Shown: positions 4,551-41,145 of the stretch, piece by piece
Layout of the letters: every line of letters starts with the position of its first letter
How positions within the stretch are numbered: the stretch's first letter is position 1
DNA from: a virus
IMG/VR virus record: IMGVR_UViG_3300025029_000002
Span: 1-42,693 of that record
Direction: 5' to 3' (one strand)
Length of the DNA stretch: 42,693 nt
Program-made: the position numbers and the translations under genes
The notes under the pieces: model-generated
Databases searched by the model: none
Told to the model about the DNA's origin: nothing
Seen by the model: the letters and a program-made list of their open reading frames with translations, nothing else

Positions 4551-4807
4551 GTACGCTCGCCGCTCTTGGCACCCATATCCACACCAATAAAGCGCGGTGG
4601 CTGTTGCGGCAACTGAACAGCCGCAATAACGATTGTGTAGTCGTTTAATACGCCCTCTAGCTGGGTCACCTGGCAGCCGAAATGGTGCGCTTCGCGCTTT
4701 AGTTCTTCGGCGGCCATGGTGTGACCTGCCTGCTCTAACTGCTTGGCGAGGTAATCAAAGCGGGCTTTCACGATGTAGAGGCCGTGCATAGTGGCATCCA
4801 GGTTCAT
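4526..4807 (-). CDS. Hypothetical protein upstream of gpA
   Basis: A 93-residue protein of unknown family. The first half is helical and charged (MHGLYIVKARFDYLAKQLEQAG), and the second contains a VTQLEGVLNDYTIVIAAVQ stretch. Its ATG overlaps the stop of the previous gene as ATGA and its 3' end overlaps gpA, so it is firmly within the early operon. It may be a replication accessory protein by position only. Confidence 0.6.
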   Translation of the reverse strand: MNLDATMHGLYIVKARFDYLAKQLEQAGHTMAAEELKREAHHFGCQVTQLEGVLNDYTIVIAAVQLPQQPPRFIGVDMGAKSGERTCFQAVKA

Positions 4808-5211
4808 GCGACCCCCTTTTCGATCAGGCTGAGCCAGTGCAGGGCGGCTTTGGTGTTGCCTTCGGCCAGTGCCTGGCGGGCGTGACTGGCGAGTTCAGCG
4901 CTTGGGTGTTGGGTGCGGTTGTTCAGTTGGTCTTTCAGGCCGCTGGCATAGCGGCTCATGCGGTGAATAGATGCCCGCACGGCATCCCGCTCTGGCTTGG
5001 CGAGCTGACGGATTTGCACGGTGGCGTCTTCCTTCAGGCCTGCGCTTTTCAGCACAAAGCGGCGCTCGGCGTGGGGGAGATCGGCCCAGACCTGAACCAG
5101 ATCCTGGTCGGCGGCGCGGCTGTGTAGCTCGGCGCGTAATGCGCCAAAGCCAGCGCGGTCTGGCTGGGTCTGGGGTCGTGGTGGAAGGGGAAGATGGGCT
5201 ACCTTATTCAT
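4804..5211 (-). CDS. Hypothetical early-operon protein
   Basis: A 135-residue protein starting MNKVAHLPLPPRP. It is rich in Ala, Arg and Leu and looks entirely helical, with a KPERDAVRASIHRMSRYASGL segment and a C-terminal helical repeat (ALAEGNTKAALHWLSLIEKG). I do not recognise a family. The ATG at 5211 has GAGGA nine bases upstream and overlaps the end of the Ogr-like gene by eight bases. A longer start at 5262 would lie inside that gene and is less likely. Confidence 0.6.
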   Translation of the reverse strand: MNKVAHLPLPPRPQTQPDRAGFGALRAELHSRAADQDLVQVWADLPHAERRFVLKSAGLKEDATVQIRQLAKPERDAVRASIHRMSRYASGLKDQLNNRTQHPSAELASHARQALAEGNTKAALHWLSLIEKGVA

Positions 5212-7219: not shown

Positions 7220-7885
7220 ATGGTTTCATTGGGTGAAAGGCTACGCGAAGAAAGGGAGAGACTGGGGCTGTCGCAGACCCAGTTTGGTGAGCTTGCCCAA
7301 GTAACTAAAAAGTCCCAGATGCTCTACGAAGGTGGGCAGCGCAGTCCGAAAGCAGATTACTTAACAGTCATCGCTGAGCAGGGGATTGATGTTCAGTACG
7401 TGTTGACTGGAAACCGTTCGGTTCCTGGGTCGCAGCTTTTGGGTATGCCATTAAATGAGCCAGGGCCAGATCTCTCGCCTGTGAAGATGTACGACATCGA
7501 AGCGGCAGCAGGCGCTGGCCGCAGCTTTGAAGGCGAGCCGGTAAAAACCACGCTCTACTTTTCCAGCGCAGAACTGGCCGAGCAGGGGCTAGACCCTGCC
7601 CAGGTAGTGGGCATTAAAGTGCGCGGCGATTCGATGGACGGCACCCTGGCTGATGGCGACTGGGTGCTGGTGGATCGCAGCAACCGCGACCCTAAGCAGG
7701 AAGGGGTGTTCTTGCTGTTGGTAAGCGGCGAGCGCCGGATTAAACGAGTACAGCGCCTGGCGGGAGGGGCGCTGTACTTGATTAGTGATAACGATCACTA
7801 CCAGCCGGAAATGATCAAACCGCAGGATATGCATGATGTGGAGATTCTGGGGCGGTGTGAGATTCGGATTGGAAGGATTGTTTAA
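7220..7885 (+). CDS. cI: CI-like repressor, HTH plus S24 peptidase
   Basis: A 221-residue lysogeny repressor. Residues 1-60 form an XRE helix-turn-helix (LSQTQFGELAQVTKKSQMLY). Residues about 90-221 are a LexA/CI S24 domain with Ser138 in RGDSMDG and Lys175 in RRIKRV as the catalytic pair; AAAGAG at 96-100 holds the probable Ala-Gly cleavage bond. RecA-stimulated self-cleavage after DNA damage is therefore expected, unlike the short, non-cleavable C repressor of P2 itself. A GAGGT site precedes the ATG. It is divergent from the early operon and controls it, probably through the dyad at 7180-7196. Confidence 0.92.
   Translation: MVSLGERLREERERLGLSQTQFGELAQVTKKSQMLYEGGQRSPKADYLTVIAEQGIDVQYVLTGNRSVPGSQLLGMPLNEPGPDLSPVKMYDIEAAAGAGRSFEGEPVKTTLYFSSAELAEQGLDPAQVVGIKVRGDSMDGTLADGDWVLVDRSNRDPKQEGVFLLLVSGERRIKRVQRLAGGALYLISDNDHYQPEMIKPQDMHDVEILGRCEIRIGRIV
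7409..7425. promoter_or_regulatory. Second operator-like dyad inside cI
   Basis: GGAAACCGTTCGGTTCC matches 16 of 17 bases of the intergenic dyad at 7180-7196 (reverse complement) and even keeps a preceding TTGACT. It lies in codons 63-69 of the repressor gene. It may be an auxiliary operator, or chance within the common TGNRS coding stretch. Confidence 0.35.
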
Positions 7886-7951
7886 ACATTGAGTAGTTAA
7901 TTTCTAATCCTTCTTCCTATCAATCGTAATTTTTATAACTTGGTGTATCGC

Positions 7952-9112
7952 ATGAGTTCACATTATCAAGCCGAATTTTTCGAAGAAGATTATTTGGATG
8001 ATATTAGCGAAATTAAGTCTCGAGATTTTGAAGACGTTGCTATATCAACCACTGATTGGACAGCTGAAACCATTGTTAATCAAGTTGTAAAAGGGAATAT
8101 ACTGTTAAGCCCCAGTTTTCAAAGGCGGGATGCATGGACTCGAGACAAAAAAAGCCTTTTCATTGAGTCAATGATTCTAAATGTTCCAGTACCTCAACTT
8201 GTGTTGGCTGAATCACCAAAAGATAAAGGAAAATATATAGTTTTAGATGGAAAGCAGCGGCTCTTGAGTATACTTCAGTTTTCAGCAGTTAACCAAAGAG
8301 CTGACTACCCAAAGCTAGTTTTGAAAGGGTTGCCTATACTAAAAAATCTTAATGGAAAGTCTTACGAAGATATAGTTTTAGATAATGGACAGTTCTCAGC
8401 TTTTGATAACTATACTATTAGAACATCTTTGATTAAAAATGTTAAAGCAGAAGATATTCTTTATCAGGTTTTTTATAGGCTGAATACTGGGAGTTTGCCT
8501 CTGAGTCCACAAGAGTTAAGGTTTGCATTGCAACCTGGAGATTTCTCAGCTTTCCTCGATAAAGAGTCATCTAGCCTTAAGGTTTTCAGATATGTATTTG
8601 ATGAAAATAAGCCAGATTTCAGAATGCGTGATGCCGAGCTTTTGTTAAGGCATATTTCCAATTGTTTTTTCTTGTCGGATTATTCAGGGAACTTGAAAAA
8701 GTTTTTAGATGAATCATATTCACAGATAGCTACAAGTTACAGTGGTTATGAAAGTGAGCTTATTGAAGCTTCTTATAACTTAGATAAAGCCCATGAACAT
8801 CTGCTTAGTATTTTTGGGGATGACTTATATAAAAAATATAAAAAAGGAAAATTTGAGTCTAGGTTTAATCGCTCAATATTTGAAGTTTTGGTCTACTTTT
8901 TTTCAAAAAAAGAGGTAAGGGATAAAGTTGTTTTGGGTGACGATTATTTTAAGCTAGAGTTAATTGAATTAATGTCGACTAATAATTCATTTTTAAATTC
9001 ACTTGAGTCTTCCACTAAGACTGTTGAAGCCGTACAGGAAAGATTTAATGGAGTGGCTGACATTTTGAATAATAGATTTCATTGTAATCTAGCTATGTTA
9101 AAGCTCCGTTAA
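7952..9112 (+). CDS. DUF262 protein of a two-gene DUF262-HEPN module
   Basis: A 386-residue protein of the DUF262 (GmrS N-terminal, ParB-like) family. The signature elements are LSPSFQRRDAW at 52-62 and the nucleotide-binding VLDGKQRLLSIL at 97-108; in GmrSD and SspE-type enzymes the equivalent DGQQR motif is needed for NTP hydrolysis. No DUF1524 HNH nuclease domain follows; instead a separate HEPN gene starts 19 bases downstream, so the pair probably works together. The DNA is much more AT-rich than the phage core, a sign of transfer. I prefer ATG 7952 over a TTG twelve bases earlier. A weak TATAAC -10 lies just before it. Confidence 0.82.
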   Translation: MSSHYQAEFFEEDYLDDISEIKSRDFEDVAISTTDWTAETIVNQVVKGNILLSPSFQRRDAWTRDKKSLFIESMILNVPVPQLVLAESPKDKGKYIVLDGKQRLLSILQFSAVNQRADYPKLVLKGLPILKNLNGKSYEDIVLDNGQFSAFDNYTIRTSLIKNVKAEDILYQVFYRLNTGSLPLSPQELRFALQPGDFSAFLDKESSSLKVFRYVFDENKPDFRMRDAELLLRHISNCFFLSDYSGNLKKFLDESYSQIATSYSGYESELIEASYNLDKAHEHLLSIFGDDLYKKYKKGKFESRFNRSIFEVLVYFFSKKEVRDKVVLGDDYFKLELIELMSTNNSFLNSLESSTKTVEAVQERFNGVADILNNRFHCNLAMLKLR

Positions 9113-9131
9113 TCTTTTCTTTGGTGATTTT

Positions 9132-9800
9132 ATGCAAAAAACTCCTGTTTTTTTGAACTTAGAGAATAGATTGTCACAGTTGGCGGATCATTTGATGCCT
9201 CCTGAGTTTGATGATTTTGCAAACTATGATGATAAATACTATGACATGGCCCGCGGTTATTGCTTGCTGGTACATGCTGAGTTAGAAAGTTATTTTGAAA
9301 AAATATGTTCTGCATACATTGATGTTAAAGTAAAAAAATATACTAGAACTGGCGAAGCCAATGATGTTATTTTAGCTATAGCTTTTTTGTTTATTCAAGA
9401 TTCAGATAGTAAGAGTGGTAGTATTTTTCAGTCTGCTATAAATAAAATGAAGAAGTGTAAGTCAGATAAAGTGAGTGAGAGAGTTAACTCATTTTCAGCT
9501 AGCTATAAATCTGTAGTGAAAGATAATAATGGGATCAAAGAAGCTGATCTAAAAAAGCTATTTATCCCGACTGGTTTGCTTGATAAAGTAGAGAATAAAT
9601 TTGATAACTTTGATAGTTTTGGTTGCGACAGGGGAAGTATTGCTCATGCAAGCACCATTCCAAGGATGCACAACCAAATAGATCCAAAAATTTACTATAA
9701 TAAAGTTTGCAATGATTTACTTCCTTCTATTGAGTATATTGACAATTTAGTAGTTCAGAGTGAGAGTTCTCTTGTTGAAATTGACTGGGACAGATATTGA
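9132..9800 (+). CDS. HEPN-family protein partner of DUF262
   Basis: A 222-residue protein resembling the MAE_28990/MAE_18760-type HEPN family, known to neighbour DUF262 genes. It is helical; helix one contains ARGYCLLVHAELESYFEKI (about 40-58), and the late motif R-x4-H is present as RGSIAH (Arg167 to His172), the catalytic motif of HEPN ribonucleases. It would be the effector nuclease, with DUF262 as sensor or antidote; this is inference. A GGTGA ribosome site lies five bases before the ATG. Composition is AT-rich like its partner, and the umuC gene converges from the other side. Confidence 0.72.
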   Translation: MQKTPVFLNLENRLSQLADHLMPPEFDDFANYDDKYYDMARGYCLLVHAELESYFEKICSAYIDVKVKKYTRTGEANDVILAIAFLFIQDSDSKSGSIFQSAINKMKKCKSDKVSERVNSFSASYKSVVKDNNGIKEADLKKLFIPTGLLDKVENKFDNFDSFGCDRGSIAHASTIPRMHNQIDPKIYYNKVCNDLLPSIEYIDNLVVQSESSLVEIDWDRY

Positions 9801-9855: not shown

Positions 9856-11232
9856 TTAACTGCTAAAACTATTTTTATATTTTTTAGGGCGAAGTGTTTC
9901 ATGTTTTTTTACATCCGATGATGTTGTTAACCTAGCTTTCATTGCCGCCCCCTCATCTGTATACGCCACCATCAGCTCATCCCAATCCGTCGTATAGTGC
10001 GGGCTTCGGTTCGCGCAGCGTAGGTGCCAGGGCGCGTTCTTTTCCGGCAGCCCCAAGCGTAGCGTTCCCTTGCCCATCTTTTCGTTCAGCGCGTCCATGG
10101 TGGCCATTAGCTTTTGGCTCCGTTGGCGTTCCTCTTCCGTTTGCGGTGTGTCCATTAGGCTGAGCTGTTGGCGGTTCTCGTCGGTCAGGTCGATCAGCAT
10201 CACGCCTGCTTTCTTGTAGCCGTATTTGGGCCGGTAGATCTTGCGCAGTGCCTTCTGGGCGGCGTGGAGAATGTCGCGGGTGTCCTGGCTTGGGCGTTCC
10301 ATTTCCACCGTCAGGCTGGGGGAGTACTGGGGCAGGTCGGGCCGGAAGCGATCGGTTTTGAGAAACACCAGCACGGCGCGGGCGAGACTCTTTTGCTCGC
10401 GGAGCTTTTCGGCGCCCCGTTGGGCGTGTTGGCGAATAGCGCCCTGTAGGTCGTAGAGCTGTGACGTGGGACGACCGAACGATCGGCTGGTCATGATGCG
10501 CTGGCGGGGTTCGTTGAAGTCGTTCATCTCCAGGCAACTGATGCCGCGCAGCTCCAGTACTGTGCGTTCCATGTTCACCGAGAACTTACGCCGCAGGCGC
10601 TTGGCGTCAGCTTCGCGGAGATCCCAGGCGGTGTTGATACCAAGGATCTGCAGGCGCTCGTTTAGCCGGCGGCCGACGCCCCATACATCGCTGACCTTGA
10701 TTTGCTGAAGCAGGTGCCTGGCTTCGTCGCTTTCCGCGTGAAGGATGCACACACCGGGGTAGCCGGGGTGCTTCTTGGCAATGCGGTTGGCCAGCTTGGC
10801 GAGGGTGTGAGTAGCAGCAACGCCCACACACACGGGTATGCCGGTGCCGCGGCGGATGTTCCTGTGTAGCGACTTGGCATGCTCCAGCAGCGCTTCCGGC
10901 TCGAAGCCATCCATGCGCACGAACATCTCATCAATGGAATAGGGTTCTACACCGGCGGTTTCCTGTTCCAGGATGCCTTGCACCCGGTGTGACATATCGC
11001 CGTAAAGCTCGTAGTTGGAGGAGTGCAACACGATCTCGCCACGTTCGACTAGGTGACGCACCTGGTGGGCCGGGGTGCCCATCTCGATACCCAGTGCTTT
11101 CAGCTCTTCCGAACGGGCGATAATGCAGCCATCGTTGTTGGACATAATGCCCACCGGGCGGCCTTCCAGCTTGGCGTTGAACACCCGCTCGCAGCTGACG
11201 TAGAAGTTGTTGCAGTCCACTAGCCCAATCAT
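9856..11232 (-). CDS. umuC: UmuC-like Y-family DNA polymerase
   Basis: A 458-residue catalytic subunit of a Pol V-type translesion polymerase. DCNNFYVSCERVF at the N-terminus and SIDEMFVRMDG (about 98-108) give the metal-binding acidic residues of the Y family, followed by the ATHTLAKLANRIAKKHP finger region, little-finger domain and a C-terminal DUF4113-like region (SPHYTTDWDELM). The last ~35 residues form a lysine-rich tail beyond the usual end. A perfect LexA box lies 27 bases before the start, so SOS induction is expected. A UmuD-like gene is divergent rather than in the same operon. Confidence 0.93.
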   Translation of the reverse strand: MIGLVDCNNFYVSCERVFNAKLEGRPVGIMSNNDGCIIARSEELKALGIEMGTPAHQVRHLVERGEIVLHSSNYELYGDMSHRVQGILEQETAGVEPYSIDEMFVRMDGFEPEALLEHAKSLHRNIRRGTGIPVCVGVAATHTLAKLANRIAKKHPGYPGVCILHAESDEARHLLQQIKVSDVWGVGRRLNERLQILGINTAWDLREADAKRLRRKFSVNMERTVLELRGISCLEMNDFNEPRQRIMTSRSFGRPTSQLYDLQGAIRQHAQRGAEKLREQKSLARAVLVFLKTDRFRPDLPQYSPSLTVEMERPSQDTRDILHAAQKALRKIYRPKYGYKKAGVMLIDLTDENRQQLSLMDTPQTEEERQRSQKLMATMDALNEKMGKGTLRLGLPEKNAPWHLRCANRSPHYTTDWDELMVAYTDEGAAMKARLTTSSDVKKHETLRPKKYKNSFSS

Positions 11233-11256: not shown

Positions 11257-11276
11257 TGCTGTTTGTTTATACAGTA
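11257..11276. promoter_or_regulatory. LexA (SOS) box between umuC and the UmuD-like gene
   Basis: The core CTGTTTGTTTATACAG (11259-11274) fits the gammaproteobacterial LexA consensus CTG-N10-CAG exactly, with TA to its right as in strong boxes. It lies 27 bases before umuC and 75-91 bases before the divergent UmuD-like gene and may control both. Confidence 0.85.
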
Positions 11277-11348
11277 TTGACCACAGGGAGAGCGACAGGC
11301 AAACGCTAATGTAAGTCGCTTAATGTGGAGCAAGCACAGGGCAACAGC

Positions 11349-11699
11349 ATGCGAGTAAATTACTTGGGGCCAGCAGTGGTGGGCGTGGAGCACCCGGCAG
11401 TGGCCGAAATGGATAGCCGAAAATTTTCACCCAGCTGCTTTCTGGTGGAGATAAGCGAAGACGCACGCCCAGGCGGGCCGTGGATGGAGGGCGATGTGCT
11501 GGTGGTGGATGAAGCGCGATCGTTCGGCCACGCCGATCTGGTAGTGGCAGAGGTGGAAGGGGAGTACCGATTGTTTAAATCCCACCGCGTGGGTAGTCGT
11601 TGCCGGCTATTGCCAGCCGATGGCGGCCAGGGTTACTTCGTGAACACGCAGCAGTTCAAGGGTGTGGTATTACGGCAGGCGAGGTGCTGGGCGGTGTAA
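11349..11699 (+). CDS. UmuD-like protein lacking the catalytic serine
   Basis: A 116-residue protein that aligns with UmuD without gaps around GDVLVVDEARSFGHADLVVA (48-67), matching the GDLLIVD...HGDIVIAAV stretch of E. coli UmuD. Where UmuD has the nucleophile in GDSM this protein has EDAR (Ala39), and the lysine position is shifted (RLFKS instead of TVKKL). It should therefore not self-cleave, and it is about UmuD' in size, so it may act like a ready-made UmuD'. AGGG lies seven bases before ATG 11349; a GTG at 11325 is an alternative without a ribosome site. Divergent from umuC across a LexA box. Confidence 0.72.
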   Translation: MRVNYLGPAVVGVEHPAVAEMDSRKFSPSCFLVEISEDARPGGPWMEGDVLVVDEARSFGHADLVVAEVEGEYRLFKSHRVGSRCRLLPADGGQGYFVNTQQFKGVVLRQARCWAV

Positions 11700-11853: not shown

Positions 11854-12279
11854 TTAATCGTTGTTGCGTTTCCGAGGCGGCTCGTTGGGCCATTCGGCAA
11901 ATATATCATTGCCAGTTATTAACGGCGGGATCTCGCTAAGGTGTTCTCTTGCGTGCCTTACCCCGCATTCCCATATCACTAATACCCGCCAACCTTGCTC
12001 CATCAGATCTTTTTGCTGGCGTTGGTCCCGCATTACGTTTCCTTCTAGCTTGTTACGCCAGAACTCTTTTCGAGTGGCGGGGGACGATGCATAAAAGCAA
12101 CCTGCATGGCGGTGCCAGAAGCAGCCATGCACAAAGATAACCAGCCGATAGCGGGGTAAAACAAGGTCCGGTTTGCCGGGAAGATCTTTGCGATGGAGCC
12201 GAAAGCGGAAGCCTTGGCCGTGCAGGTAGCGCCGCACGGCCATTTCGGGTTTGGTGTTTTTGCCCTGAATGCGGCTCAT
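11854..12279 (-). CDS. vsr: Very short patch repair endonuclease Vsr
   Basis: A 141-residue Vsr endonuclease, which nicks beside T:G mismatches left by deamination of 5-methylcytosine. The core is clear: GKPDLVLPRYRLVIFVHGCFWH contains the catalytic Asp and the FWH residues, and HGCFWHRHAGC supplies two zinc-site cysteines; C-terminal VLVIWECGVR follows. It sits downstream of a C5-methyltransferase, its usual partner. The ATG at MSRIQGKNT is the only one available, yet the in-frame codons before it still read DVLTRSQRTYC, the normal Vsr N-terminus, so the original start codon has apparently been lost or a non-standard one is used. Confidence 0.9.
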   Translation of the reverse strand: MSRIQGKNTKPEMAVRRYLHGQGFRFRLHRKDLPGKPDLVLPRYRLVIFVHGCFWHRHAGCFYASSPATRKEFWRNKLEGNVMRDQRQQKDLMEQGWRVLVIWECGVRHAREHLSEIPPLITGNDIFAEWPNEPPRKRNND

Positions 12280-12333
12280 GCAGTAGGTGCGCTGGGACCG
12301 CGTAAGGACATCTTTTGAGCGGGGTGTTATAGG

Positions 12334-13473
12334 CTACTCCAGGTCTTCGATTTCCTGGTTTTCGATGACCAGCTCTTTTTCCCATTCAATGGTTTCAGGG
12401 CGAATAGAGACGCTATCGACACTTACACCGCTGAGGGCACTGGCTCTGAATGAGTCGTCTACACAGGTCAGTATAGAAGCTGCCATATTTGCCATTGGAG
12501 TGGAAATAGCCAGCTTCGCGTAGTCTTCTTTTACTTCATAAAGCCTGTAAATGCGGTAGGGATGCTCAGACTCTACCATTTCCCGAAGTTCAGCCAATGA
12601 GACGTGCAGCGGGTTAGTGAAGGGTCCACCTGTGGATTTGGCATCAATAAGTTGTTTAGCCCCGTTGATAACGACCTCGAAGTCATAGGGAGCAATGGCG
12701 TTTTCACTGGCCACCCATTGATAGCTTTCGATGCCAAGGCCTACCTGATCGGAAAGATATTGGTTGAGAACCTCTTCTCCCAGGTGACCTATACTTTCGA
12801 AAGCTTTTTTCGCGTTGCGAAATTCCTCATGAGAAAGCCCGCGTGAACGTTTACGGTTTAGGTTTCTAATACCCTCAATTCCACTTTGAACAGCATCTTC
12901 GAGGTCTTTGGAATCCAGTAGCTCTCTAAATGGATGGTCTACAGAAATTAGCGATTGAGCCTCTTCGTAAATGCTGTCGATGTCACTTTTTTCTAGGGCG
13001 ATCATACTGAATTTGGGGTAGCGCTTATCAATAATTTCGTGAAGCGCTTTATCCTCAGGGTCGTTAGCAGCGATCAGCGTCATGGTTACTTTTTGAGGCC
13101 AAGCTGCTCCGAAAAACTCCAGCACAGCGTAGTCATGTCGGACCAGTACACTGTATCTATCATCTCCTTCTGGCATAGGAATATGTTTGCCATTTAAGCG
13201 CCAGTTTTTCGAGCCGGGGCTCTTGTTTACTTTTTGTGAAAGTTGCTGCTGAGATGCATTGCCTGGCCCCAAAATTGTTAAACCAACAAAAAAGGGTTCC
13301 CAGTTGTTCTCCTCTGCTATTTCTTTCAGGTTTGGATAAAAATTTTTTATAAAAGGATTGACGTTAAGGTTAATACACTTTTGCTGGCTACCCCCCTTAA
13401 AGTGATTTAGGTGGTATTCAAAGATATTTAGGTCAGACTGTGCCAGTTTCTTCAATGCGATCTTGCGTGACAT
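12334..13473 (-). CDS. Putative restriction endonuclease, DUF3883-like PD-(D/E)XK
   Basis: A 379-residue protein whose C-terminal half resembles DUF3883-type nuclease domains: GEEVLNQYL (232-240), then APYDFEV (Asp264) and LIDAKST (Asp277 and Lys279), the D...DxK arrangement of the PD-(D/E)XK fold. The N-terminal ~200 residues are unfamiliar and may give sequence recognition. It overlaps the methyltransferase 3' end by 41 bases and is followed by vsr, so it is most simply the restriction partner of a type II system. Specificity cannot be read from the sequence. Confidence 0.72.
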   Translation of the reverse strand: MSRKIALKKLAQSDLNIFEYHLNHFKGGSQQKCINLNVNPFIKNFYPNLKEIAEENNWEPFFVGLTILGPGNASQQQLSQKVNKSPGSKNWRLNGKHIPMPEGDDRYSVLVRHDYAVLEFFGAAWPQKVTMTLIAANDPEDKALHEIIDKRYPKFSMIALEKSDIDSIYEEAQSLISVDHPFRELLDSKDLEDAVQSGIEGIRNLNRKRSRGLSHEEFRNAKKAFESIGHLGEEVLNQYLSDQVGLGIESYQWVASENAIAPYDFEVVINGAKQLIDAKSTGGPFTNPLHVSLAELREMVESEHPYRIYRLYEVKEDYAKLAISTPMANMAASILTCVDDSFRASALSGVSVDSVSIRPETIEWEKELVIENQEIEDLE

Positions 13474-14947
13474 GTACAGCGTTCCCTGTAAGTTGTTCTT
13501 TAATAATTTTGGCTAACGCCTTTGCCATTAATGGCGGTACGGCGTTACCAATCTGACGAAAGGCAGGGTTCATTGGCCCTGTGAATACAAACCCATCTGG
13601 AAAAGACTGCAGGCGAGCCGCTTCTCTTACGGAAATGGTGCGGGCCTGCTGGCTGTCGTAATGAATATGTGAATAACTGTCTTTACCGAGGTGCGCCATA
13701 AGCGTTCTGGCTGGCTTATTGGCTTCCATTTTGCGCCACTTATTAGGGAATTTGTTTGGGTCATAGGGCGGAATGAAGTTTTTCTTCTCAAGCTCAAACC
13801 GTTCCGTACCTTCCAGCGGGCGAAAGCCTTCCTTCTTTTGGATCTCTATAAGGCGCTCTTCAAACATCTCATTGGCCAGGGTATGAGCCTGTGGGTACTG
13901 GTCGCCTGGGTTCATGCGCGCGAAAATCTTATAGTCGCGGGGCAGGTAGCGAATGACATGATCATGGATGCCATCGCCAGCCTCGAAGCCTTCCCAATGG
14001 CGCATGAGGCTTTGAAACTCGTTTAAATCCTTATTCGCCGGGTAGAACTGCAGAGTGTCAAAGCGACGCGGCCCCTTCTTGAGTTTTTGCTCAGAATCAT
14101 CGGCAATTTTAGGCAGATCAGAAAGCGCTTGCTCCGCAGTCACGGCTGGCTTTAAGCCTGCCTGCTCAGGTTCCGGTGGGTCGATAAAGAAGCGGGTTTC
14201 TTCATCCAGCAGATCCCGCTTGATGGTCTTCATGGCCACCTGACGTGATCCATGATACCCGCGGGGTAGATCAATCCAGTGCGTTGGGCTGGGAAACCAG
14301 TCTGTGCATTCGAGCTCTTGGCGATAGGCCACCAGGAACATCCGCTCGCGCATTTCGGGCACGCCGTAAAATACCGCGTTGAGCATGGTATAGCGTGCTT
14401 CATAGCCTAAATCCCTCAGGGCTTCACACACCTCTTCTGCAATATTATGGCCACCGAAATTCAGCACGTCGGGTACGTTTTCCATCAGGATGGCAACGGG
14501 ATGAAGTGCGGTTACATATTGCAGATAACGTAGATATAAGTTGCCACGCGGATCGTTCAGGTACGCTTCGGGATGCTCTGCCACTTCGCGGAGTTTTGCT
14601 CTGCCTACGCGAGCAAATGCCTGACAGGGAGGGCCGCCCACTATTACATCGACCTGCTCTTCTGGAATGCCCTCTATTCCCAGTTCATTCAGTAAATCAA
14701 ATGGCTCAGTTGCAGTGATATCTCTGGCTTTGGCATGAACTTCCCGCATCTCTTCAGGTAGATGCCCATGAAAGTTCATCGCATGTGAGCGCGCTGCCGG
14801 AGGATCAAACTCTACCGCACCAATATTTTGAAACCCGGCCGCATGAAACCCTAGTGAAATACCGCCACATCCGGCGAACAGATCGAGCACCCTGGGGGGG
14901 CCGCCAGCTCGAATGCGTTCAATTTTTTGCTGGATCACACGGCTCAT
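13433..14947 (-). CDS. C5-cytosine DNA methyltransferase
   Basis: A 504-residue Dcm-type enzyme that methylates cytosine. Motif I is LDLFAGCGGISLGF (about 21-34), motif IV GGPPCQAFARVGR with catalytic Cys108, motif VI LMENVPDV, motif VIII-like PEMRERMFLVAY, and motifs IX-X RTISVREAARLQSFP and FRQIGNAVPP near the C-terminus. The target-recognition region between VIII and IX is long (about 150 residues). I chose ATG 14947 because AGGAAAG lies a few bases upstream; a longer in-frame start at 14977 has no ribosome site. First gene of the methyltransferase-nuclease-vsr operon. Confidence 0.93.
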   Translation of the reverse strand: MSRVIQQKIERIRAGGPPRVLDLFAGCGGISLGFHAAGFQNIGAVEFDPPAARSHAMNFHGHLPEEMREVHAKARDITATEPFDLLNELGIEGIPEEQVDVIVGGPPCQAFARVGRAKLREVAEHPEAYLNDPRGNLYLRYLQYVTALHPVAILMENVPDVLNFGGHNIAEEVCEALRDLGYEARYTMLNAVFYGVPEMRERMFLVAYRQELECTDWFPSPTHWIDLPRGYHGSRQVAMKTIKRDLLDEETRFFIDPPEPEQAGLKPAVTAEQALSDLPKIADDSEQKLKKGPRRFDTLQFYPANKDLNEFQSLMRHWEGFEAGDGIHDHVIRYLPRDYKIFARMNPGDQYPQAHTLANEMFEERLIEIQKKEGFRPLEGTERFELEKKNFIPPYDPNKFPNKWRKMEANKPARTLMAHLGKDSYSHIHYDSQQARTISVREAARLQSFPDGFVFTGPMNPAFRQIGNAVPPLMAKALAKIIKEQLTGNAVHVTQDRIEETGTV

Positions 14948-14987
14948 AGAGACTTTCCTAATTCGATTGCCCGGCATACACCAAAAC

Positions 14988-15097: not shown

Positions 15098-16102
15098 TTA
15101 GGGGTTGTGAGAGCTGCTTGTTACCTCACACTTCACCCGCGTACCAAGCCCACTGTCATTCAGGCTATGTGTCACCTCCGCCACCAACCAAGCGGTTGCG
15201 TCGATCTGGGGCTTGTAACCGCTAAGCGTTAGCGGCGACTCCGGCAGGATATCTGCCCGCCCCAGTGCCAGCGTTAGCTCAAATTCTGCCAGGCCACGTT
15301 GGATGCGTTGCCATTCAGCGCGGGCGGCGGCTAGGGCGTCGTCTTCCGTGGCGTAGGTGGGGCGTAGCTGTTTGGCGTTGTCGCCGCTGCCTGCGAGTAC
15401 GGTTTTGCGCTCTGCGCCTCTTGTGTCATTCCAGTAGGCTTTGACGCCGCTGTAGGCGTCGCGATCGGTGACGCTGTAGCGGTGCTGGTCGCCGTCGCGG
15501 CGGGTGAGGGTAATGGCGGGCATGGCTTGGCCGCTGGCGGTTAACCCTTCGCCTGCCACGGTAAGCAACATGCGCCCGGCTTTAATGGCGGCAATGGCAT
15601 CGTAACGCTCGCCTAGGCGGGTGAGGAAATTAAGATCCGATTCTTCGGTTTGATCGATGTGGCCAATTCGGATGCCGTTGAGGGCTGCGGCCACCAATGG
15701 CTCTAACTCATTGCGGTCGGCGATGGAGGTAACGATCTCGCCTAGCGTTACGTCATGCCAGCTCTGGGTGCGCTTGCCGGGAAGCTGGCCGCGCATATCC
15801 GCCGAGCGGGCGCGTATGGTGAGCTGATCCGGAGTGCCGCTGTGCTGCACTTCATCTACGGTAAAGAGCCCCTTGTCGATCAGCCCTTCATCCTGCCAGC
15901 CAAAGGCCACCTGCAGCTCGGCGCCGCGTGGAGGAATGGCGAGCTGGCCATCGTGATCGGCAAGGGTGATATCCAGTTGGTCAGCTTCCAGCCCGCGCTG
16001 CTCGCGTAGGGTCAAACTAATCAGGCGGCCGTTAATGCGCGGGGTGATGTCGTTACCATCCAGCGTGATTCGATAGCTTGGCCGGGGGTATCGGGTATTC
16101 AT
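15098..16102 (-). CDS. D: Tail protein gpD (baseplate hub)
   Basis: A 334-residue homologue of P2 gpD, the trimeric hub related to the T4 gp27 and VgrG N-terminal part. Visible family features are the opening YRITLDGNDITPRINGRLISLTL and the central NRNELEPLVAAALNG-like and ESDLNFLTRLGERYDA segments. The ATG overlaps the gpU stop by four bases. It is the last gene of the FI-D late operon; ogr, which follows D in P2, is absent from this position. Confidence 0.92.
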   Translation of the reverse strand: MNTRYPRPSYRITLDGNDITPRINGRLISLTLREQRGLEADQLDITLADHDGQLAIPPRGAELQVAFGWQDEGLIDKGLFTVDEVQHSGTPDQLTIRARSADMRGQLPGKRTQSWHDVTLGEIVTSIADRNELEPLVAAALNGIRIGHIDQTEESDLNFLTRLGERYDAIAAIKAGRMLLTVAGEGLTASGQAMPAITLTRRDGDQHRYSVTDRDAYSGVKAYWNDTRGAERKTVLAGSGDNAKQLRPTYATEDDALAAARAEWQRIQRGLAEFELTLALGRADILPESPLTLSGYKPQIDATAWLVAEVTHSLNDSGLGTRVKCEVTSSSHNP

Positions 16103-41129: not shown

Positions 41130-41145
41130 CTGTATATTTGAACAG
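41130..41145. promoter_or_regulatory. LexA (SOS) box before the adenine methyltransferase
   Basis: CTGTATATTTGAACAG matches CTG-N10-CAG exactly and has the AT-rich centre typical of strong boxes. A degenerate partner (CTGTATATCAATACTG, 41117-41132) overlaps its left side. The start of the methyltransferase is only about ten bases downstream, so LexA would cover the promoter. Confidence 0.82.

Follow-up and report, generated by a model that had tools for sequence, protein, structure and literature searches.

The window, meaning the whole stretch of 42,693 nucleotides that was analysed, is an IMG/VR virus contig resembling the P2-like phages and prophages of Halomonas/Vreelandella, and its nearest database relatives are Halomonas/Vreelandella genomes and Halomonas phage vB_HboP_4908. 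On its plus strand, at 11349-11699, lies a gene for a 116-amino-acid product that homology, a structural model and alignment of the dyad positions mark as a catalytically dead, UmuD'-sized S24 fold. We refer to this product, versions of which occur in many Halomonas-type phages, as the YLGP protein, a working name taken from its N-terminus, MRVNYLGP. The first-pass annotation had drawn the gene as 11257-11699, a span that has to be shortened. The reading frame is open from a GTG at 11325, which is ruled out as the start because in two relatives (L014 and L028) stop codons interrupt the frame before the ATG at 11349; the latter is therefore the true start. A PADLOC search gave no match for the protein, and a sigma-70 scan found no consensus promoter directed at the gene.

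Upstream lies the gene for a CI-type repressor (7220-7885, plus strand) with a helix-turn-helix and an S24 domain, whose AAAG cleavage site, GDSM serine and IKRV lysine are intact. An intact umuC-like Y-family polymerase gene (9856-11232, minus strand; 458 amino acids), recognised by its conserved motifs, is divergent from the YLGP gene, and a LexA (SOS) box, CTGTTTGTTTATACAG, sits between the two at 11259-11274. Cargo fills the space between cI and umuC (7940-9800, plus strand). It consists of a GmrSD_N/NsnA-like gene (7940-9112) followed by a HEPN (RiboL-PSP) gene (9132-9800), which together may form a two-gene defence cargo; in contig L163, too, cI is followed by a pair of this kind. Further, restriction-modification-like cargo, comprising a Vsr endonuclease, a NO VEIN-C/TmtA-like protein and a C5-cytosine methylase, occupies 11854-14977 on the minus strand between YLGP and the late-control gene gpD (15098-16102, minus strand), a landmark of P2-like phages and the far end of the cI-to-gpD interval. 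Bacillus phage vB_BpuM-ZY1 (L050, OR820920.1) is 84-91% identical to Halomonas P2-like phages over the proteins compared; the host recorded for it, Bacillus pumilus, is questionable.

Homology, fold and the lost catalytic dyad

The homology of YLGP to UmuD is well above chance. The protein matched UmuD' in the PDB with a phmmer E value of 7e-6, and its family profile matched UmuD' at 3e-10 and LexA at 2e-7. All 43 family members matched the PHROG 'UmuD-like protein'. Pfam PF00717 scored the window protein at 20.7 bits, below the gathering score of 23.3, and was matched at E <= 0.01 by 40 of the 43 members. Since a single-sequence model reached a pLDDT of only 41, an alignment-based model built with 42 relatives was used instead; with a pLDDT of 84.5, it places YLGP in the S24, or LexA-UmuD, fold as predicted, and its top PDB structure matches were UmuD', LexA and lambda CI. 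Structure prediction, proposed earlier as a check on the UmuD-like fold, thus came out in its favour. The C-terminal S24 domains of phage CI and LexA proteins, including the 186 repressor, share this fold (Z about 8-10), although in sequence YLGP is less similar to them than to UmuD. On the other hand, it scored only 20.4 bits against the UmuD model PRK10276.1, whose cut-off is 110, and in a small tree its long branch lay next to, and not within, the UmuD/HumD clade.

The gap-free alignment to UmuD around GDVLVVD, noticed in the first-pass annotation, holds, as does the replacement of GDSM by EDAR and the altered lysine region. In the window protein, the position of UmuD Ser60 is Ala39, within EDAR, and that of Lys97 is Phe76. 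These positions are Ala/Val and Phe/Tyr, respectively, in 42 of 42 aligned members, so the loss of activity is an old trait of the family. In the Halomonas set, the sole case with Ser at the Ser60 position, L004, nevertheless has Phe at the Lys97 position. Lys77, adjoining Phe76, is Lys in just 20 of 42 members, and a search for an alternative Ser/Lys dyad found no Ser, Thr or Lys conserved at 90% across the 42 aligned members. YLGP starts near the point where UmuD' starts, and has neither an N-terminal arm nor a Cys/Ala-Gly cleavage site. Lacking the nucleophile, the general-base lysine and a cleavable arm, it is predicted to be incapable of processing, in agreement with the earlier proposal of a short, UmuD'-like protein that does not cleave itself. 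YLGP and Escherichia coli UmuD/UmuD' of Pol V therefore share the S24 fold, an alignable core, an SOS box and a neighbouring umuC, and differ in Ser60, Lys97, the arm, the cleavage site and the placement relative to umuC.

Independence from umuC and two expression arrangements

The polymerase gene of the window retains D6, D101/E102, a QLSLM clamp motif and DUF4113, and over 15 copies of the window lineage its dN/dS was 0.085, so that by these marks it still looks functional. It lies directly behind the LexA box in this lineage, and no canonical umuD was found in cis to it. The relation of this arrangement to umuDC was revealed by seven contigs (L059, L060, L061, L063, L064, L079 and L115) with a UmuC that shares 64-67% identity with that of the window. 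There, YLGP and a complete canonical umuD-umuC operon are transcribed away from each other, and the umuD is of the cleavable type (GDSM, VKRY and, as an AG-F type cleavage site, AGISGF). In these relatives it is thus canonical umuD that precedes umuC in the operon, with YLGP standing alongside, which argues against YLGP being a umuD split from its umuC. YLGP is an older, separate gene, and the window lineage has lost canonical umuD. The divergent pair around one shared LexA box that the first-pass annotation described is there; the broken umuD-umuC order that it read into the pair is not, as relatives keep both genes, YLGP persists without umuC, and it follows the S24-type CI.

Among near relatives, umuC is intact, partly deleted or missing, and other cargo replaces it. 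Short, lone fragments of the C-terminal DUF4113 region of UmuC beside YLGP (L020, 4704-4919; L035 and L048, near 4690-4900) are what is left after umuC deletion. Purifying selection on YLGP is equally strong in loci with umuC (dN/dS 0.078) and without it (0.089), and the closest umuC-less pairs mostly gave values of 0.01-0.17. Six copies are broken (L009, L017, L018, L019, L034 and L047). YLGP is a real, conserved gene under selection. Conversely, umuC homologues also occur in three phages that have no YLGP (L281, L287 and L294). Canonical UmuD was present in all 13 host genomes tested, which disposes of the idea that hosts lack UmuD and that YLGP is obliged to serve UmuC; UmuD' could be supplied by the host, and UmuC need not depend on YLGP.

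The LexA box CTGTTTGTTTATACAG is 27 bp from the ATG of umuC on one side and 74 bp from that of YLGP on the other, and is one of two matches in the 42.7 kb, against 0.4 expected by chance; the other, CTGTATATTTGAACAG, is at 41130-41145. The box is found at the same place and spacing in most relatives, several of which have no umuC. Across 82 YLGP loci, a LexA-box-like site was present within 200 bp upstream in 63, compared with 11 of 1640 in shuffled sequence. In L147, L148, L171 and L173 it is 58-59 bp before the YLGP ATG, and inspection of L147, L171 and L173 found no divergent gene beside it; there, the box therefore serves the YLGP gene itself. Six of the 19 loci without a box resemble remnants or copies disturbed by cargo, and in the remainder about 14 nt or less separate YLGP from the gene before it. 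Inspection of 12 box-less contigs placed it 3-14 nt after the preceding gene, as the final gene of a same-strand run led by cI, with a longer cargo stretch before it in L163. No LexA boxes were found elsewhere in the cI region of the box-less contigs. Judged from these arrangements, YLGP apparently has two modes of expression, from its own LexA box or at the end of a cI operon.

Co-occurrence with the S24-type CI repressor

In the wider family, the gene order is cI (plus strand), variable cargo, YLGP (plus strand), variable cargo and gpD (minus strand). Every intact member with enough flank has YLGP in the interval from cI to gpD, where it stays while the cargo on its sides turns over freely. 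In a sample anchored on gpD, it was present in all 29 contigs with a full S24 CI (two copies being broken), and in none of the 16 whose CI homologue matched the DNA-binding part alone. A search anchored on CI found it in 32 of 32 contigs with enough flank, and in 294 cellular genomes 7 of 7 YLGP copies were near an S24-type CI. The gpD tree showed five concordant joint changes of CI type and YLGP, four of them inside the clade. L230 and L243 have a CI DNA-binding domain and gpD close to those of YLGP-bearing relatives, and have lost both the S24 domain and YLGP. Of two more distant S24-CI prophages, G190 has a strongly diverged version of YLGP in the same place, and none was found in G160, a P2-like prophage with a diverged S24 CI. 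In L230, L248 and L264, whose CI lacks S24, a shared gene with a motif like GGDNHGxITFGxHITIN directly follows cI; this gene could be an alternative immunity-linked partner in such phages.

In a mirror-tree comparison, YLGP distances correlated at 0.74 with those of gpD versus 0.59 with those of the CI S24 domain, and the partial correlation was 0.31. Within the Halomonas set, CI varies and YLGP does not. Joint exchange of CI and YLGP by recombination is a real alternative to a functional tie, because the 3' end of cI and YLGP share one recombining interval.

Candidate roles of the YLGP protein

The best reading assigns YLGP to the immunity/SOS-response module of P2-like phages rather than to a split umuDC operon. 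Because it travels with the damage-sensitive repressor and not with the neighbouring polymerase, its probable role is either to adjust the damage switch of the prophage or to serve as a ready-made UmuD'. We favour, with a probability of roughly two in five, a non-cleavable S24 partner or decoy that tunes RecA-dependent cleavage of CI, since this covers the dead site, both modes of expression, the tie to a cleavable CI and the persistence of YLGP where umuC is missing. YLGP would bind where cleavable S24 proteins act, either by dimerising with the CI S24 domain of the phage, and perhaps with UmuD too, or by occupying RecA filaments, and would set the ease of CI cleavage and prophage induction. 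Some phages would make it together with CI; in others, including that of the window, LexA would release its expression once damage begins. The fold, the lost dyad, the conservation, the position, the two expression arrangements and the co-occurrence with S24-type CI are observed; what YLGP binds, and in which direction it acts, we infer. Rather more tentatively, a dead S24 family co-inherited with a RecA-cleavable CI may buffer that cleavage, through mixed dimers or competition for the RecA filament, as a setter of the induction threshold. UmuD active-site mutants are reported to form mixed dimers (PMC5342242) and the GIL01 protein gp7 hinders LexA self-cleavage (PMC4551915), which by analogy makes the candidate mechanisms plausible for YLGP. 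Tum, GftA, AntC, GIL01 gp7 and DdrR are small phage or host proteins that act on an SOS or prophage-switch repressor, several of them under LexA control (PMC3121763, PMC4551915, PMC7273328). They differ from YLGP in not being described in these papers as catalytically dead S24 domains. YLGP, which would act on the S24-type CI that accompanies it, differs from the S24 repressors themselves in having neither a DNA-binding domain nor cleavage. The literature collection that was searched yielded no useful paper on the RecA-contact residues of UmuD or CI, and none on a UmuD-like gene in Halomonas phages.

A possible competitor, which we rank somewhat behind the partner or decoy, is a pre-activated UmuD' similar to HumD, a dimer of which would form active Pol V with phage or host UmuC without RecA-dependent cleavage and so aid replication of damaged phage DNA. 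In precedent it is the stronger of the two. P1 HumD, which carries the annotation that it complements UmuD', and its relatives N15 gp26 and HK140 gp28 are phage-encoded, of UmuD' length, and devoid of a cleavable arm and of an operon umuC, as YLGP is; P1 humD also shares its LexA box with a divergent gene. Moreover, N15 gp26 (L351, 1498-1884) and HK140 gp28 (L352, 1198-1587) have Thr at the Ser60 position, the lysine being kept. UmuD' as the closest PDB match, the start near that of UmuD', the upstream LexA box and the selected, intact umuC of the window lineage without umuD in cis all suit this role. However, HumD keeps the Ser, and all three proteins keep the lysine and the UmuD' N-terminus (GFPSPAADYVE... 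in HumD), whereas YLGP has neither dyad residue and begins with its own N-terminus; it scored 13.6 bits against the HumD model NF051876 (cut-off 120) and falls outside the HumD clade. Many relatives have a cleavable umuD beside YLGP, YLGP is kept where umuC is gone, umuC homologues occur in YLGP-less phages, and hosts supply UmuD.

An antirepressor made in the SOS response seems unlikely. It would pair with CI in mixed dimers that have only a single DNA-binding domain, and would so relieve repression and hasten induction as Tum, GftA and AntC do. The LexA box, the proximity to cI, the tie to S24-type CI and the missing DNA-binding domain would fit, and phages 186, N15 and Gifsy provide examples of antirepressors under LexA control (PMC3121763). 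Nevertheless, the apparent co-transcription with cI in 12 contigs would be self-defeating. The known LexA-controlled antirepressors act, to our knowledge, for repressors that are not cleaved, whereas the phage CI here keeps AAAG, GDSM and IKRV. Somewhat less likely still is one of the two roles suggested by the first-pass annotation, a dominant inhibitor of host Pol V, which would bind the UmuD or UmuC of the host and thereby block either mutagenesis or the UmuD checkpoint. Hosts do have canonical UmuD, and besides the mixed dimers of UmuD variants, over-expression of S60A arm-truncated UmuD is reported to sensitise cells to UV (PMC5342242); yet such an inhibitor does not explain why YLGP accompanies an S24-type CI, and phages with their own umuDC would inhibit themselves. 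The other suggested role, a polymerase that bypasses the UmuD checkpoint, may hold, and likewise leaves the tie to CI unexplained. That YLGP is a decaying, functionless umuD remnant is hardly credible. The absent catalytic residues and the few broken copies would be expected of it, but the long-term purifying selection with and without umuC (dN/dS 0.08-0.09) contradicts decay, and Ala/Val and Phe/Tyr are fixed at the former dyad.

UmuD'-sized S24 proteins are already known from phages, and YLGP is a further variant. If it acts on CI or RecA, these phages tune the exit from lysogeny by means of a protease fold that has lost its activity, and YLGP makes the idea of a non-cleavable S24 partner open to experiment. 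Should it be a ready-made UmuD' instead, pre-activated Pol V subunits of the HumD type would be known from two independent phage lineages. In both cases, phage proteins annotated as 'repressor LexA' or 'SOS response' deserve better names.
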